From a virus, in IMG/VR virus record IMGVR_UViG_3300042908_000747, positions 1 to 22,668 of that record: a stretch of 22,668 bases of DNA. One strand, written 5' to 3'. Below are positions 14,526-22,668 of this stretch, piece by piece (within the stretch, counting starts at the first letter, position 1; the number at the start of each line of letters is the position of its first letter). A program made the translations under genes and the position numbers. The notes below the pieces were generated by a model. That model saw only the letters and a list, made by a program, of their open reading frames with translations. It was not told the origin of the DNA and did no database searches.

Positions 14526-15231
14526 TCAGCTCCTCGACTTCGTGAAGCTCTCGCGTCTCACGGTCTCGACCGCGCGTCGTGTGCTCACGGCGCAGATCAC
14601 CGGCGCGGGCGACGCGGGCGACGACGCAGCCGCGGAGACGCTGTCGAGCGTCGAGGTGGTGCAGCCGCTCGGGCTGCTCGCGTACCCCACGCTCGGCGCC
14701 ACGACGGAGGCGCTCATCGCGCGCATCGGTGACACCGCCGTCGCGCTCGGGTTGATCGACAAGGGCGGCGCCGCGCAGGCCGTCGAGGCGGGCGAGGTGC
14801 GGCTCTACGGGCCAGGGTCGCAGAACGCGACCGCCGTCGTGCGCATCCGCGCCGATGGCTCGATCGAGATCACAGCGAAGACCGGGCTGAACGTCACCGC
14901 CACGGCCCCGGCCGCGGGCGTGGTGATCTTGCAGGACGGATCGCAAGCGTTCGTGCGAGGCGCGCAGTACGCAAGCGCGCTGACGTCGTATCTCACGGCC
15001 GAGAGCACCCTGCTTACCGCGCAATCGGTGTTCCTCGGACTGCTGTCCACATACGCCGTCGCGATCCAGCCGATCGCCGACCCGACGAACGCCCAGACGC
15101 CGATCCTCACGGCCGGAATCGGCGCGCTGCAAGCGGCTATCGCGGCGCGCGCTGCGAGCGTCTCGACGTTCGCTAGCACTGCCGTCAGCGCCCCTACCGG
15201 GTGGCTCTCGACGAAGGTGCTTGGCCAATGA
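14518..15231 (+). CDS. Baseplate spike protein, Mu gp45-like
   Basis: 237-aa protein following the hub gene with an 8-nt overlap. The central part matches Mu gp45/gpV-type spike proteins: 'VEVVQPLGLLAYPTLGATTEALIARIGDTAVALGLIDKG' (family: v...qp.Gf.s.P..G.ea..l..gG....vvi...d), 'VEAGEVRLYGPGSQNATAVVRIRADGSIEITA', then a beta prism-like end. Residues about 130-237 are unusual for gp45. After 'DGSQAFVRGAQYASAL' comes a helical Ala/Thr/Leu-rich section ending 'TGWLSTKVLGQ', a tail found on some other spike-like proteins. The HxH iron-binding tip of Mu gp45 is not present, so the piercing point may be built differently. Confidence 0.8.
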   Translation: MFDQLLDFVKLSRLTVSTARRVLTAQITGAGDAGDDAAAETLSSVEVVQPLGLLAYPTLGATTEALIARIGDTAVALGLIDKGGAAQAVEAGEVRLYGPGSQNATAVVRIRADGSIEITAKTGLNVTATAPAAGVVILQDGSQAFVRGAQYASALTSYLTAESTLLTAQSVFLGLLSTYAVAIQPIADPTNAQTPILTAGIGALQAAIAARAASVSTFASTAVSAPTGWLSTKVLGQ

Positions 15232-15607: not shown

Positions 15608-17110
15608 GTGTTCGTCGGACGATCTAGAGACACGATCCGCGATGAGCTCATCGCGTACCTGCGCGCGGAGTACACCGCCAACAGCCGCACGCTGCTGACC
15701 TCGCGTGGGAGCGACGCCTACCTCGACGCGTCGGCCCTGGCCGTCGTGCTCGAAGGGCTCGAGGCGCAGGCCGAGCAGAACGCGCGCGACATCCTCCCCG
15801 ACCAGGCGAGCGATGAGGCCGTCGCGCGGCATGGCTACGTCTACGGCGTCGACCGGCGCACGGGCGTTGCTGCGCGCCACACCGTCACCGTCACGGGCAC
15901 GCCGTCGGCGACGATCACGATCCCCTCGGGCTCCGCGTTCGCGTGGACCGACGGCACGCTCTACGCGGTCACGTCCACCAGCGTCACGCTCTCGGTCGGC
16001 GGCTCGGGCACCGTGAGCGCGAGCGCGACGACGACGGGCGCGAGCACCACACGCGACGTCGGCGACGTGCTGACGTGGGTGTCTGCGCCCTCGGGCCTCG
16101 ACCCCACCGGCACGGTCGCGAGCGTCGTCACCACGGGCGCCGATGCTGAGACGGTGCAGGCGTGGGCGCAGCGCATCGTCGATCGGCTGCGCTACCGCCC
16201 CGGCGCGGGCAACGCCGCCGAGTGGCGCGAGTGGTGTCTGTCATACCTCGGCCTCGACGTGCGCGACGCGTACGTTTACCCGCTCCTCGCGCCGCCCGTG
16301 TCGTACCCCGGCGCGGGCACCGCGAGCACGCTCGGATGCGTGACTGTCGTGCTCGTGGGGCCGCCGCAGGGTGACAGCCCGTCGAACACGCGACTGCTCG
16401 GCGGCGTGTCGGGGGCGCTGCTCTCCGAGGTGCGCGAGTACATCAACGGCACGCGCACGATTCTCGGCCTCCCGACGTCGAGCGGAACGCAGCTTCGCAG
16501 CGTGGGCATCTCGACGGGCGACACCTCGATCGAGGCCATCACCGAGGACACGCAAGACGCCTTCGCGACGGTGACGGTGAACGCCGCCAACGCCTACGGC
16601 TTCGCGTCGCCCGCGACGATCCACTCGAGCAGCACGACCACGTCGCTTGTGCTCACGGGCGACTACTCCGCGACGGGCATCGACCTCGCCTCAAAGGCCG
16701 CGCTCGTGAACGTCGGGACGTCGGTCTACCGCGGCGGCTACTACCGCGTTGTGCTGCCCACGGGCACCTACAACGGCGGCACCGGGCGCACGACCTTCAG
16801 CCTCACCGCGACACCGCTCCCGGCGAACCCCGCGACACTGACGCTCTACCCTGCGCCCGCCAACTGGAGCGCGCTTCGCCTCGCGGCGTTCGCCTACTTC
16901 GACGCGCTCGGCCCCGGCGACACGAGCCCCGCCGCGCGCTTCCCCGCCGAGGACAGCAGCGCCCGCGCGACGCTCTACACACAGGCGCTCTCCGCGGCGC
17001 TCATGGCCGTCCCCGGCGTGCTCTCGGCCGAGGTGACGACGCCCGGCCTCGACGTCACGCCCGCGGCGAAGGCCGTGCTCACGCTCGACCTGTTCTTGGT
17101 GTCGCAGTGA
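15608..17110 (+). CDS. Baseplate J-like protein, Mu gp47-like
   Basis: 500-aa wedge protein of the contractile baseplate. Starts at GTG two bases after the gp46 stop. Seen: an N-terminal helix with 'DTIRDELIAYLRA.....SRTLLTSRGSDAYLDASALAVVLEGLEAQAE', 'LPDQASDEAVARHGYVYGVDR' (relatives: p.ta....L...a...G..R......a.G.v...G), a beta domain 'ITIPSGSAFAWTDGTLYAV', and the core motif 'ADAETVQAWAQRIVDRLRYRPGAGNAAEWREWCLSYLGLDVRDAYVYP', typical of baseplate J. Residues about 330-430 form an extra Ser/Thr/Gly-rich beta region not in short Mu-type gp47 (about 360 aa). The C-terminus 'VPGVLSAEVTTPGLDVTPAAKAVLTLD' is standard. Confidence 0.87.
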   Translation: MFVGRSRDTIRDELIAYLRAEYTANSRTLLTSRGSDAYLDASALAVVLEGLEAQAEQNARDILPDQASDEAVARHGYVYGVDRRTGVAARHTVTVTGTPSATITIPSGSAFAWTDGTLYAVTSTSVTLSVGGSGTVSASATTTGASTTRDVGDVLTWVSAPSGLDPTGTVASVVTTGADAETVQAWAQRIVDRLRYRPGAGNAAEWREWCLSYLGLDVRDAYVYPLLAPPVSYPGAGTASTLGCVTVVLVGPPQGDSPSNTRLLGGVSGALLSEVREYINGTRTILGLPTSSGTQLRSVGISTGDTSIEAITEDTQDAFATVTVNAANAYGFASPATIHSSSTTTSLVLTGDYSATGIDLASKAALVNVGTSVYRGGYYRVVLPTGTYNGGTGRTTFSLTATPLPANPATLTLYPAPANWSALRLAAFAYFDALGPGDTSPAARFPAEDSSARATLYTQALSAALMAVPGVLSAEVTTPGLDVTPAAKAVLTLDLFLVSQ

Positions 17111-17541
17111 CCGCGCTCTGGCAGCGTCGCGACACCGACGTCGCCTACCGTCTGCCTGTGCCCGCCGACTACGGCTGGGCCTTCGCGCGCGCCGTCGACC
17201 CCGGCGCCTCGGCGCTCGTGTCGGCCGTGCTCCTGCGCGACGGGCTCGTGTACCTGATGCGATCGAGCACCGTCTACGCGGGCCGCTACGAGCTCGACGG
17301 CGCCACGCAGGGCTCGGCCACGGGCGCAGCGTCGAGCGTCAGTGACGGGGCCGCGGGTACCCCGCTCGCGGTGTTCCTGAGCGAGATGAACATGCGGTGG
17401 CGCGCGTGGGCAGCATCGCGCATCGCCGACCTCACGAACGCGGGCGGCCCGGCCTACGGCGGCCCTGTGTGGAGCGGCGCAGGCAGCGCGCTCGCTTCGC
17501 TCGAGGCCGCCGCGACCGCGTGGGCGTGGGAGGCGATCTAG
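17107..17541 (+). CDS. Baseplate-region protein, unknown
   Basis: 144-aa protein starting at GTG in a GTGA overlap with gp47; not recognised. It contains 'YGWAFARAVDPGASALVSAVLLRDGLVYLMRSSTVYAGRYELDG', which reads as paired beta-strands, then a Ser/Gly/Ala linker and a C-terminal helical part rich in Trp and Ala (MRWRAWAASRIADL, AAATAWAWEAI). Mu has no gene here between gp47 and gp48. Tight coupling to gp47 and normal codon bias say it is real and probably a baseplate or fibre-attachment component. Its stop is one base from the stop of the opposing lipoprotein gene. Confidence 0.68.
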   Translation: MTALWQRRDTDVAYRLPVPADYGWAFARAVDPGASALVSAVLLRDGLVYLMRSSTVYAGRYELDGATQGSATGAASSVSDGAAGTPLAVFLSEMNMRWRAWAASRIADLTNAGGPAYGGPVWSGAGSALASLEAAATAWAWEAI

Positions 17542-17542
17542 C

Positions 17543-18067
17543 CTACGAGCACCGAACGCCGCCGCTCCACCGCACGCACATGCCACGGCACGCCGTCGTG
17601 CACGACCCGCAGGTCTCGCGCCGGTCAAGGCGCACCTCGCACCCTGTCGAGGGGTCGCCGTCGCAGTCGGCGAAGTTCGCGGGGCACACGTCCACGCACT
17701 GCCCCGCCTGACACGACGGCACCATCGACGGGCGCAGCGTGCCGCAGTCGCGCACCGTCACGCACGGCCGATCGCCCTCGACGCGCCGAGCATCGCTCGC
17801 GGTGTCGCTGAGTGGCGATGCGTCGCCCCCGGGTGCTACGTCGGGCTCGCGCGCGACGTCTTGCGGCACGACCGCGGCGGCTTCGGGCGCGGCGTCGACG
17901 GCCACCGCGACGGCGGCATCCTGCGACGCCTCGGGCGCGTCTTCGCTCGCGGTGGCTACGTCCGTGCTCACGACGTCGCCCGCCGCGTCTGGTGAGGCGC
18001 TGACGGGCTCCGCGGAGCCGCATCCGAGGGCCACGAGCGAGAGCATCGCGAGGAGAAGAGCCTTCAT
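17543..18067 (-). CDS. Cys-rich predicted lipoprotein (moron), opposite strand
   Basis: 174 aa and the only leftward gene. The N-terminus is a lipoprotein signal: MK, hydrophobic LLLAMLSLVALG, then C16, with G17 and S18 after it. Residues 17-100 are an Ala/Asp/Val/Pro-rich acidic linker. Residues 102-173 hold 12 Cys, including 'CPANFADCDGDPSTGCE' (128-144) and 'CGSCTTAC' (153-160), a layout common in Myxococcota surface and secreted proteins; the DCDGDPSTGCE loop may bind calcium. Predicted site: outer membrane or cell surface. It lies between an unknown baseplate gene and gp48, with a 1-nt gap at its 3' end and 39 nt before the gp48 start. It is probably a lysogenic-conversion gene; function unknown. 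The frame is open further upstream to 18907, but that part only shadows gp48 and the next gene. Confidence 0.82.
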   Translation of the reverse strand: MKALLLAMLSLVALGCGSAEPVSASPDAAGDVVSTDVATASEDAPEASQDAAVAVAVDAAPEAAAVVPQDVAREPDVAPGGDASPLSDTASDARRVEGDRPCVTVRDCGTLRPSMVPSCQAGQCVDVCPANFADCDGDPSTGCEVRLDRRETCGSCTTACRGMCVRWSGGVRCS

Positions 18068-18075
18068 GGTCGCGC

Positions 18076-18105
18076 ACGATACGCCACAAACTCCCCCGGT
18101 GTCAC
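18076..18105 (-). promoter_or_regulatory. Candidate sigma70-like promoter for lipoprotein gene
   Basis: On the minus strand GTGACA (18105-18100; 5 of 6 match to TTGACA), an 18-bp spacer, then TATCGT (18081-18076; 4 of 6 match to TATAAT). The start of transcription would lie only a few bases before ATG 18067, giving a very short or absent leader; no GGAG lies at a useful distance from the ATG. The gene needs its own promoter because it opposes the operon. Six-base matches arise by chance, so confidence is low. Confidence 0.27.
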
Positions 18106-18106
18106 A

Positions 18107-18718
18107 ATGCCCTTGACTGCGCCGCAATCGCTCCCGTCCGCGAGCAGCGACGCCGCGACCCTCGCGCGCCAGCTTTTGCGCCTCGTCGGCCCTGGCTGGC
18201 AGGCGCCCGACGGCTCGAACAACGCCGCCGACGCCCTCGCTCGCGGCGCGACCCTCGCCGACTCGCGGCAGATGCTGCTTGACACGGCGCTCGAAGCGTT
18301 CGCGTCGCTCGCGACCGACCTGCTCTCGGAGTGGGAGGCGCTGCTGGGCATCCCTGCTGATGACACGCTCCCCGACGCCGACCGCCGCGCGCGCCTCGCG
18401 GCCTACGCGCGCTCGCAGCTCGGCGGGTCGCCGCAGGCCATCGCCGCCGCGGTCGAGGCCATCACGACCGCGTGCACGGTCGAAGAGACGACGGCCGCAG
18501 AATGCGCCGCCGCGCTCGCCACGGCGCGCGACGTGTTCCGCTTCGCCGTCGTGGTGCCCATCGGCTTCGTGCAGATCGCGTCGAAGAACGCTAGCGTGCG
18601 CGCCATCGTCGACCGCATGAAGCCCGCGCACACTGCCTACACCGTCGCGAACGCCGTCGGCTTCTACTGCGACGGCTACCTCGACACGTACCTCGACACG
18701 ACCGCCCTCGACAGGTGA
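18107..18718 (+). CDS. Baseplate/tail protein, Mu gp48-like (DUF2313/YmfQ)
   Basis: 203-aa protein. The pattern matches the Mu gp48/DUF2313 family: 'LARQLLRLVGPGWQAPDGSNNAADALARGATLADSRQMLLDTALEAF....LLSEWEALLGIPADDTLPDADRRARLAAYARSQLGGSPQAIAAAVEAI' (relatives: ...LLPpG.aw......l..ll.a.a..l.r......lL.e.dP.ta...L..WE..lGlp.......R...l......ggt). The end 'DRMKPAHTAYTVANAVGFYCD' also fits, since relatives have a .P.HT.. strand near the C-terminus. ATG 18107 lacks a clear ribosome site and lies just past the leftward lipoprotein gene, so the usual coupling to the gene upstream has been lost. Confidence 0.78.
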   Translation: MPLTAPQSLPSASSDAATLARQLLRLVGPGWQAPDGSNNAADALARGATLADSRQMLLDTALEAFASLATDLLSEWEALLGIPADDTLPDADRRARLAAYARSQLGGSPQAIAAAVEAITTACTVEETTAAECAAALATARDVFRFAVVVPIGFVQIASKNASVRAIVDRMKPAHTAYTVANAVGFYCDGYLDTYLDTTALDR

Positions 18719-19305: not shown

Positions 19306-20007
19306 ATGGGTAACCCCTCGTCTTTCGTGTCCGCCGCCTCGGTCGACGACGTCAACACCTTCACGCAGACGCAGACCTTCGCCGCCGCGGCCGCCTCGTC
19401 GGGCGCGCGCTCGCTTCTCGTCGTGACCGCCCCCGCCGACACGGGCATCACGGCCTCGACCGAGCAGACCGACGTTTACTTCAACCTCTCGGCGACGCGC
19501 ACGTGGGCCACCGGCGCCCTCACGACGCAGCGGTTCGTGCGCCTCGCCGCGCCGACGATCGCGTTCGCGGGCGCCTCGACCGTGACCACGGCGGTGACGT
19601 TCGACATCGCGGGCGCGCCCACCGCGGGCACCAACGCGACGATCACCACCAGCTACGCGTTCCGCGTCGTCGCGGGCACCTCGTACTTCGGCGGCGCGGT
19701 GGTTCTCGCGAGCGGCGCGCTGCTCGCGGGCAACATCCAGGTCGACAGCACCGACGCGAGCGGCACGCCCGGCGCGGCCACGATCAACAGGCCCTCGGGC
19801 ACCGTGTCCATCGCCATCGGCGCAGCGAGCGTCACGGTGACCAACAGCCTTGTGACGGCAAGCTCGCGCGTGTTCGCGACGCTCCAGTTCGGCGACGCGA
19901 CGCTCACGACGATCCTTCGCGTGGTGCCCGGCTCCGGGTCGTTCGTCATCACCGGCAACGCCAACGCCACGGCCGCGACGAAGATCGCGTTCTTCGTCAT
20001 CAACTGA
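19306..20007 (+). CDS. Tail fibre-like protein with C-terminal knob-type domain
   Basis: 233-aa Thr/Ala/Ser/Val-rich protein. The start is fixed by GGAG at 19296-19299, 6 nt before ATG 19306. The N-terminal 'VDDVNTFTQTQTFAAA' resembles fibre openings. The middle is beta-rich (VYFNLSATRTWATGALTTQRFVRLAAP). Residues 155-233 ('AATINRPSGTVSIAIGAASVTVTNSLVTASSRVFATLQFGDATLTTILRVVPGSGSFVITGNANATAATKIAFFVIN') follow a small C-terminal domain that I know from many phage fibre and virion proteins (G...i..G..sv.VtN..vt..S.v...l...Da.......v.p..GsF.i......a....v.w.v.N). It probably trimerises and contacts the cell surface. Receptor unknown. Confidence 0.72.
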   Translation: MGNPSSFVSAASVDDVNTFTQTQTFAAAAASSGARSLLVVTAPADTGITASTEQTDVYFNLSATRTWATGALTTQRFVRLAAPTIAFAGASTVTTAVTFDIAGAPTAGTNATITTSYAFRVVAGTSYFGGAVVLASGALLAGNIQVDSTDASGTPGAATINRPSGTVSIAIGAASVTVTNSLVTASSRVFATLQFGDATLTTILRVVPGSGSFVITGNANATAATKIAFFVIN

Positions 20008-21976: not shown

Positions 21977-22482
21977 TCGTCGCGGCTGACGCCGTGCTCG
22001 CGGGGTGCTCCGCGGTCCTGGGCGGATGCGCCATGCTCGACGCCGCCCGCGTGCGCCTCGCGCTCTCCCTCGACGCGCTCATCTCGCGCGACAGGCGAGA
22101 CACGCCGCAGCCAACGCGGTGCGTGCTCGTGCTCGACGACGAGGAGGGCGGGCGGGATTCGATGCGTCTCCTGCTCGCGCCGCTCGGTGCCGAGGTGATC
22201 ACAGCCTCGACGCCGGCCGAAGCGCGCGCGCTCATCAGCGCTCGACGGCCCGCCGCCATCGTCGCGGACTACTACCTCCGCGGCGAGACGTCGGCCGCGC
22301 TGCTTCGCGGGCGCCCCGCCTACGCGCGCGCTGTGCTCGTGACCGGCGCCGTCGACCTCACCGCGCTCACGGGCATCGCGCGCGGCTGCGGCGCTGACCT
22401 GCGCGAGCGCCCCATCACCCTCGAAGCGCAGGACGCGCTCTGCGCCCTCGTCGCCTCGTACCTGCCACCGGAGACGCCATGA
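21973..22482 (+). CDS. Response-regulator receiver-domain protein
   Basis: 169 aa, GTG start in a GTGA overlap; ATG 22033 is an in-frame alternative that removes 20 residues. Residues 48-164 read as a CheY-like receiver: strand and acidic pair VLVLDD (D55, D56), helix 'DSMRLLLAPLGAEVITASTPAEARALI', phospho-acceptor in IVAD (D99), switch residue in VLVTGA (T124), and 'ADLRERPI', where R146 takes the place of the usual Lys. Spacing D56-D99 (43), D99-T124 (25) and T124-R146 (22) is close to CheY (44, 30, 22). Residues 1-36 are hydrophobic with two Cys and might be an anchor. No output domain follows. Such genes are abundant in Myxococcota chromosomes but odd in a phage late operon. Possibly a host-signalling modulator. 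Confidence 0.75.
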   Translation: MIVAADAVLAGCSAVLGGCAMLDAARVRLALSLDALISRDRRDTPQPTRCVLVLDDEEGGRDSMRLLLAPLGAEVITASTPAEARALISARRPAAIVADYYLRGETSAALLRGRPAYARAVLVTGAVDLTALTGIARGCGADLRERPITLEAQDALCALVASYLPPETP

Positions 22483-22668
22483 CCGAGCCCACGACCAACC
22501 CCGACGGCCTCGATCACGCAAGCACAGCGGTCGCGTGGCTGCTGCCGCTCGCGCTCCTCGCCGCCCTGGCTGCGACGCAGTGCGGGTGCGGCGGCGCGGG
22601 CGCGATCACCGGCGTCGCGGGCGCCGTCAAGACCACGCTCGACGTGCTGCGACAGACGCGCGCCGTGC
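22479..22668 (+). CDS. Small membrane protein, 3'-truncated
   Basis: Starts at ATG 22479 (ATGA overlap, GGAG at 22470-22473 five bases upstream) and runs off the window after 63 codons. A polar N-terminus (about 16 residues) is followed by a hydrophobic segment AVAWLLPLALLAALAA (about 18-33), then two Cys in TQCGCGG, a Gly/Ala stretch and the start of a polar helix (VKTTLDVLRQTRAV). It is probably an inner-membrane protein. The Cys do not fit a good lipobox (the residue before C35 is Gln), so a lipoprotein such as an outer spanin is possible but weak. The position suggests a lysis gene. Confidence 0.55.
   Translation, partial: MTEPTTNPDGLDHASTAVAWLLPLALLAALAATQCGCGGAGAITGVAGAVKTTLDVLRQTRAV

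Follow-up and report, generated by a model that had tools for sequence, protein, structure and literature searches.

The 22,668-bp IMG/VR virus record analysed here over its whole length (hereafter the window) covers the head-tail region of a Mu-like phage with a contractile tail. A lipoprotein gene running against the surrounding operon has long resided there, under a predicted promoter of its own, at a baseplate junction that bears other cargo in some relatives. Its product is judged to be an outer-membrane lipoprotein of host-like type whose expression does not depend on the late operon, and for which superinfection exclusion, following the logic of Llp and Cor, would by analogy be the likeliest function. 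The complete proposal, i.e. a self-contained unit in which an outer-membrane lipoprotein is made apart from the late operon and excludes phages with similar tails, is put forward tentatively, as one that may quite possibly be right.

The rightward genes of the window encode terminase, Mu-type portal, capsid, sheath, tape measure, gpN, gpP, gp45 to gp48 and fibre-type proteins, and the sole minus-strand gene retained by a codon-score gene caller is that of the lipoprotein (17543-18067; 174 aa, ATG start, stop codon included). It lies among baseplate genes, between the gp47 side and gp48. The left border of the junction is gp47 (15608-17110, plus strand; Baseplate_J, PF04865, E 1.5e-23, phrog_6), followed by a 144-aa orphan gene (17107-17541, plus strand) that is convergent with the lipoprotein gene, 1 nt from its stop, and is often, not always, its companion; the right border is a gp48-like baseplate gene (18107-18718, plus strand; PF10076, E 2.2e-13, phrog_203), whose start lies 39 nt from that of the lipoprotein gene. 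No family match was obtained for the 144-aa orphan, and its structure model was poor. The first-pass annotation had described a leftward 174-aa lipoprotein gene with an Ala/Asp/Pro linker and a 12-Cys domain, set between a gp47-linked orphan and a gp48-like gene in an otherwise rightward region; the translation reproduces the former exactly, and the family matches and gene calls bear out the latter. By its capsid protein, the nearest cultured phage is Pseudomonas phage B3 (32%), and gp47 had no match among 50,697 phage records. The window's phage family probably has myxobacteria-type hosts (Myxococcota), and for the window's own phage we infer such a host; a temperate life, which the window's phage may share, is supported by the sequences of relatives, namely a prophage in a metagenome-assembled genome (MAG), an integrase in relative G001 and an anti-repressor in the junction of the latter. 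Two other places vary strongly among near relatives, namely the C-terminal part of gp45 (14925-15228, 70% amino acid identity to 3300017754) and a fibre-type gene (19306-20007), which is hypervariable and replaced.

Regarding its architecture, the protein starts with a signal peptide ending at the lipobox cysteine (residues 1-16, MKALLLAMLSLVALGC, 18020-18067, minus strand; lipobox VALGC, Cys16), followed by an Ala/Asp/Pro-rich linker (residues 17-97, 17777-18019, minus strand) and by a head domain (residues 98-174, 17546-17776, minus strand) holding 12 further Cys beyond that of the lipobox, with the motifs DCDGDPSTGCE and CGSCTTAC. In the AlphaFold2 model, residues 15-94 fall below pLDDT 50, as for a disordered tether, and the head is small with pLDDT of about 60-78; searching the PDB with this model gave a best match at E 1.5, EGF-like and not significant. 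The sequence matched no Pfam, PHROG or NCBIfam model above its cut-off (the Fer4, Nodulin_late and Lpp matches all being below theirs, and Stig1-like, PF04885, not matching the window protein at all), nor any defence family. In M. xanthus, a Lys at position +2 retains lipoproteins in the inner membrane and an Ala at +7 directs them to the extracellular matrix (PMC3222651). The window lipoprotein has Gly at +2 and Val at +7, hence neither signal, and since neither +2 Lys nor +7 Ala occurs in any complete version among relatives, the protein is predicted from its sequence to reside in the outer membrane.

An outer-membrane-type lipoprotein that comes from a prophage, as is presumed here, and whose C-terminal domain varies recalls a SitA-like toxin delivered by outer-membrane exchange. 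This reading is scarcely credible and was rejected on missing features, as the protein has no nuclease domain and no gene follows it on its strand that could act as an immunity gene.

The head is built as one repeat of a host-type module. A profile of the lipoprotein matched 223 places in a Myxococcaceae MAG, two long proteins of which display a signal, a lipobox and an A/D/P linker followed by many DCDG..GCE..CGxCGxxC repeats. The phage protein thus appears as a miniature made of the host-type module, which upholds the earlier idea of a host-type surface lipoprotein with a Cys/DCDG layout, some of the matching host proteins being lipoproteins of the same signal-linker-repeat plan. Comparison of 20 kb of the phage with 379 Myxococcota genomes at the DNA level pointed to the same gene: it contained 7 of the 8 best matches and, among the best 40, 14 where 1.06 would be expected. 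The protein search that had been suggested against phage and Myxococcota proteins was fruitful in part, as host-type modules were retrieved at 47-52% identity, but no phage record matched and no full-length homologue was present in 141 Myxococcota genomes. All versions of the lipoprotein share the short signal, the lipobox and the acidic linker, and it is the head that differs: the window clade has DCDG..GCE..CGxC, L038 (25.7 bits) and L028 (25.2 bits; the same gene as L036) have Stig1-like heads that pass the Pfam gathering cut-off of 24.1, and the MAG prophage locus L061 has Cu-binding_MopE (E 3.1e-11).

Since 131 open reading frames can be drawn mechanically in the window, many of them reverse shadows of other genes, the existence of a reading frame proves little by itself. 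The gene is nonetheless real, as its protein features, its inverted place and the promoter before its ATG are conserved; homologues down to 38-41% identity keep the signal, the lipobox, the linker and most of the domain Cys. A reverse-strand shadow is ruled out by the conserved Cys, lipobox and promoter, and a virion protein is unlikely given the signal, the strand and the promoter. Distant Mu-like phages do have the gene at this position, which the first-pass annotation would have taken as a refutation had it coded for a virion protein there; what they carry is again an inverted lipoprotein gene and no virion gene.

The junction was compared among relatives, as had been advised, and the lipoprotein gene proved present in some and absent mainly in one clade. 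It is in place in the three near relatives 3300044516, 3300017754 and 3300011338. A scan with a gp47 alignment, which yielded 31 loci from viruses and one from a bacterial genome, located an inverted lipoprotein gene with a Cys-rich head between gp47 and gp48 in L036, L037, L038, L039, L040, L042, L044, L061 and, partially, L041, where gp47 is 48-70% identical to that of the window in the phages and 30% in L061, a prophage on a 108-kb contig of the uncultured Myxococcaceae MAG. In L014, L016, L043, L045-L051 and L054, gp47 runs straight into gp48 without the lipoprotein, which is also absent from the more distant relative L053. On the gp47 tree, where L061 and L053 form long branches, three changes are needed to explain presence and absence, and ten contigs without the gene make up one supported clade (99/98) beside L038. 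The simplest reading of these sequences is an old resident gene lost in one clade, a single origin being unproven. The same inverted gene in divergent relatives rules out a lone recent insertion, and a search of the flanks for direct repeats, such as an insertion would leave, gave nothing convincing. The earlier view of an inserted moron with its own signals is consequently only partly right: the predicted promoter agrees with it, but a gene occupying the same junction in divergent phages is an old resident.

The 144-aa neighbour has relatives next to the lipoprotein gene in L036, L038 and L044; it is absent wherever the lipoprotein is absent, and L037, L039-L042 and L061 hold the lipoprotein without it. 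Other genes are also lodged at this place. The MAG prophage has a Mrr_cat restriction-nuclease gene between the lipoprotein and gp48 (L061:12487-13218, minus strand; PF04471, 34 bits vs. 21), so the junction carries other cargo. The junction of 3300025073 contains an anti-repressor-like gene (L037:9696-10574, plus strand; phrog_63, E 1.4e-6), an odd place for lysogeny control. Upstream of the lipoprotein, a second inverted gene encodes a membrane-anchored protein with conserved Cys (L037:8066-8794 and L044:8545-9135, both minus strand; 48% identity between the two) that matched no family and nothing in 189 Myxococcota genomes. Just behind the tail genes of a distant relative lies another inverted lipoprotein gene with a weak Lcl_C match (L056:10770-11729, minus strand), and apparent type I-E cas genes, read by eye, directly follow the MAG prophage on its contig (L082:11571-19861). 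CRISPR spacers compared with the window gave three short near-exact matches, none of them in a repeat array.

A lysis helper of the o-spanin type would share the lipobox and the predicted outer-membrane location, and in L037 and L044 the adjacent membrane-anchored gene on the same strand could be seen as its partner. The window has no such partner, however, and its gene is enclosed in the baseplate operon, on the strand opposite to the late genes, with its own promoter and a Cys-rich head; besides, separate rightward lipoprotein-like genes stand near the presumed lysis region (window 22479-22668; L084:405-728, the latter also Cys-rich and host-like). This very improbable reading was rejected on missing features.

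Regarding expression, a promoter is predicted on the minus strand 8 nt before the ATG (GTGACA-18-TATCGT, 18076-18105; one found vs. 0.0 expected), and it is the only promoter-like site in 1.8 kb; with only 8 nt from promoter to ATG, the mRNA would have almost no leader. The layout recurs as GTGACA-18-TACCCT in L044 and L061, 7 and 8 nt before the ATG, respectively, although their gp47 proteins are only 48% and 30% identical to that of the window and other genes separate the lipoprotein from gp48 there. Altogether, GTGACA-18-TANNNT-7/8-ATG is found in three lineages of the window's family as well as in the E217-like phages described below, and three further lineages of the family have the -10 box alone. 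GTANNNT stands 6-8 nt before the ATG in 6/6 lineages with a free upstream region, vs. 0/110 called genes and 13/1564 ATGs; the L037 version, whose start overlaps the upstream gene, is devoid of promoter. Among 2.9 million viral contigs, the stricter pattern GTGACAC-N16-GTAYCST-N7/8-ATGMR occurs in four only, each time at the lipoprotein gene. A general host promoter is ruled out: the 8.5-Mb MAG has just two copies of the pattern, one belonging to the prophage lipoprotein and the other preceding a 238-aa protein that is no lipoprotein, and the host proteins L063 and L064 are without the full promoter. A scan confined to intrinsic terminators, as distinct from rho-dependent ends, found none for the lipoprotein gene. 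From these sequences, the gene is predicted to have its own, conserved promoter.

The head is the most variable stretch among near relatives. In 3300017754 and 3300011338, the lipoprotein is 76-78% identical to that of the window, vs. 98% for gp47; at the nucleotide level, gp47 is about 95% and gp48 90-99% identical among close relatives, vs. 71-79% when the head of the window is set against those of its two relatives; the end of the 144-aa gene that faces the head shows a shallower drop. Differences were flat over the three codon positions in one near-relative pair (29/28/27), and dN/dS among near relatives came to 0.39-0.92 over the full gene, the head taken by itself giving 0.23-0.73. The flat codon positions and the dN/dS of the whole gene suggest weak protein constraint or recombination, and, with dN/dS below 1, the variation of the head may likewise stem from either. 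Recombination, relaxed constraint and mild diversification would all fit these data, and positive selection is unsupported by dN/dS. Such values, together with the clade without the gene and the other junction cargo of some relatives (Mrr-type nuclease, anti-repressor, membrane protein), could also be expected from an accessory gene under weak constraint that does little and persists since the junction tolerates cargo. Against this, which seems improbable, the intact reading frame, the Cys pattern, the promoter and the position are kept across phages whose gp47 proteins are 48-70% identical.

A phage type unrelated to that of the window has this arrangement too, having either evolved it separately or received it by transfer. 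Scanning with the lipoprotein sequences disclosed two phages, L110 and L111, that have no detectable structural protein in common with the window and whose baseplate genes are of E217 type (Dit-like, E217 gp41, Baseplate_J). Between their gp45-like and gp46-like genes, so labelled from gene order and weak family matches, lies an inverted gene for a 338-aa Cys-rich lipoprotein (L110:4380-5396; L111:4575-5591), which in L111 overlaps the stop of the convergent gene by 4 nt. It is preceded by GTGACA-18-TAGGAT-8-ATG, an out-of-sample success for the promoter rule, which had been made before these loci were seen. A bolder version of the proposal, that of a mobile self-promoted cassette lodged in reverse orientation within baseplate operons of Myxococcota phages that are unrelated to one another, with exchangeable heads copied from surface proteins of the host and acting as a tail-specific receptor mask or decoy, is conceivable but rather unlikely.

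As for mechanism, the leftward promoter would allow the lipoprotein to be made while the late operon is silent, in lysogeny or early infection, and late transcription, which would run antisense through the gene, suggests production when that operon is off. The product would combine a lipid anchor, a disordered tether of about 80 residues and one disulfide-type head as in host Cys-rich surface proteins, and would most probably protect the infected cell, perhaps by occupying or modifying an envelope component so that phages with similar tails no longer re-infect it. Exclusion fits best with the tail-linked place, the exchangeable heads and the own promoter, and exclusion of similar-tailed phages would account for both the residence in the tail module and the change of head between lineages. 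Exclusion lipoproteins adjoining tail-adhesion genes and blocking receptors from the periplasm are known, e.g. T5 Llp for FhuA and Rtp45 for LptD (PMC9586334; PMC12685063), and the same idea of their locus has been stated elsewhere (PMC11990801). The main rival is lysogenic conversion without exclusion, where a miniature of a host adhesin-type lipoprotein would alter adhesion, predation, kin interaction or outer-membrane exchange. Its architecture copied from host surface lipoproteins, its own predicted promoter and the known prophage lipoproteins with social roles in myxobacteria, i.e. SitA on Mx-alpha (PMC5562445), speak for this reading; yet nothing would explain why a gene of general fitness resides among the baseplate genes of two unrelated phage types, and the protein is without the extended repeats and the C-terminal domains of its host counterparts. 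An effect on host surface or social behaviour instead of exclusion seems unlikely, if deserving of serious attention.

Myxococcota phages are little known, and in a review of M. xanthus phages the words receptor and lipoprotein are absent. A self-promoted, host-like lipoprotein maintained among the tail genes of several lineages offers a concrete candidate for the way such phages remodel the cell surface, and its short promoter signature provides a means of finding more such genes. If the lipoprotein excludes other phages, its head would point to the receptor. Beyond this family, its occurrence in two unrelated baseplate operons suggests a testable general idea, namely that genes modifying the surface travel together with the tail genes that depend on the receptor involved.

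Compared with known systems, the window lipoprotein resembles T5 Llp, Cor and Rtp45 in being phage-coded beside tail genes and in being expected to act at the outer membrane of the host, without a part in building the virion. It differs from them in its larger size, long linker and Cys-rich host-type head, the known exclusion lipoproteins being much smaller and no host mimics, as well as in its orientation opposite to the tail operon; no version matched a PHROG, and exclusion is here a proposal. In phage lambda, bor is a moron lipoprotein gene that lies in the late region but has a promoter of its own and is read in the direction opposite to the late operon. The window gene has the same setting, with a predicted promoter, and, as for morons, is present or absent at one junction between related phages; it differs from bor in being Cys-rich, unrelated in sequence and long established at a single junction throughout a phage family. 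The earlier statement that no moron of this type had been described was too strong, SitA on Mx-alpha (PMC5562445) and lambda bor being precedents. With SitA of this Myxococcus prophage, the window lipoprotein shares a presumed prophage origin, a predicted outer-membrane location and a variable C-terminal part, but it has no toxin domain, immunity gene or sitB and occupies another place in the phage. The Cys-rich repeat lipoproteins of Myxococcota (Stig1-like or DCDG-type, e.g. L063 and L064) share with it the signal, the lipobox, the acidic A/D/P linker and the DCDG..GCE..CGxC module, and it departs from them by having one repeat instead of many and no C-terminal domain.
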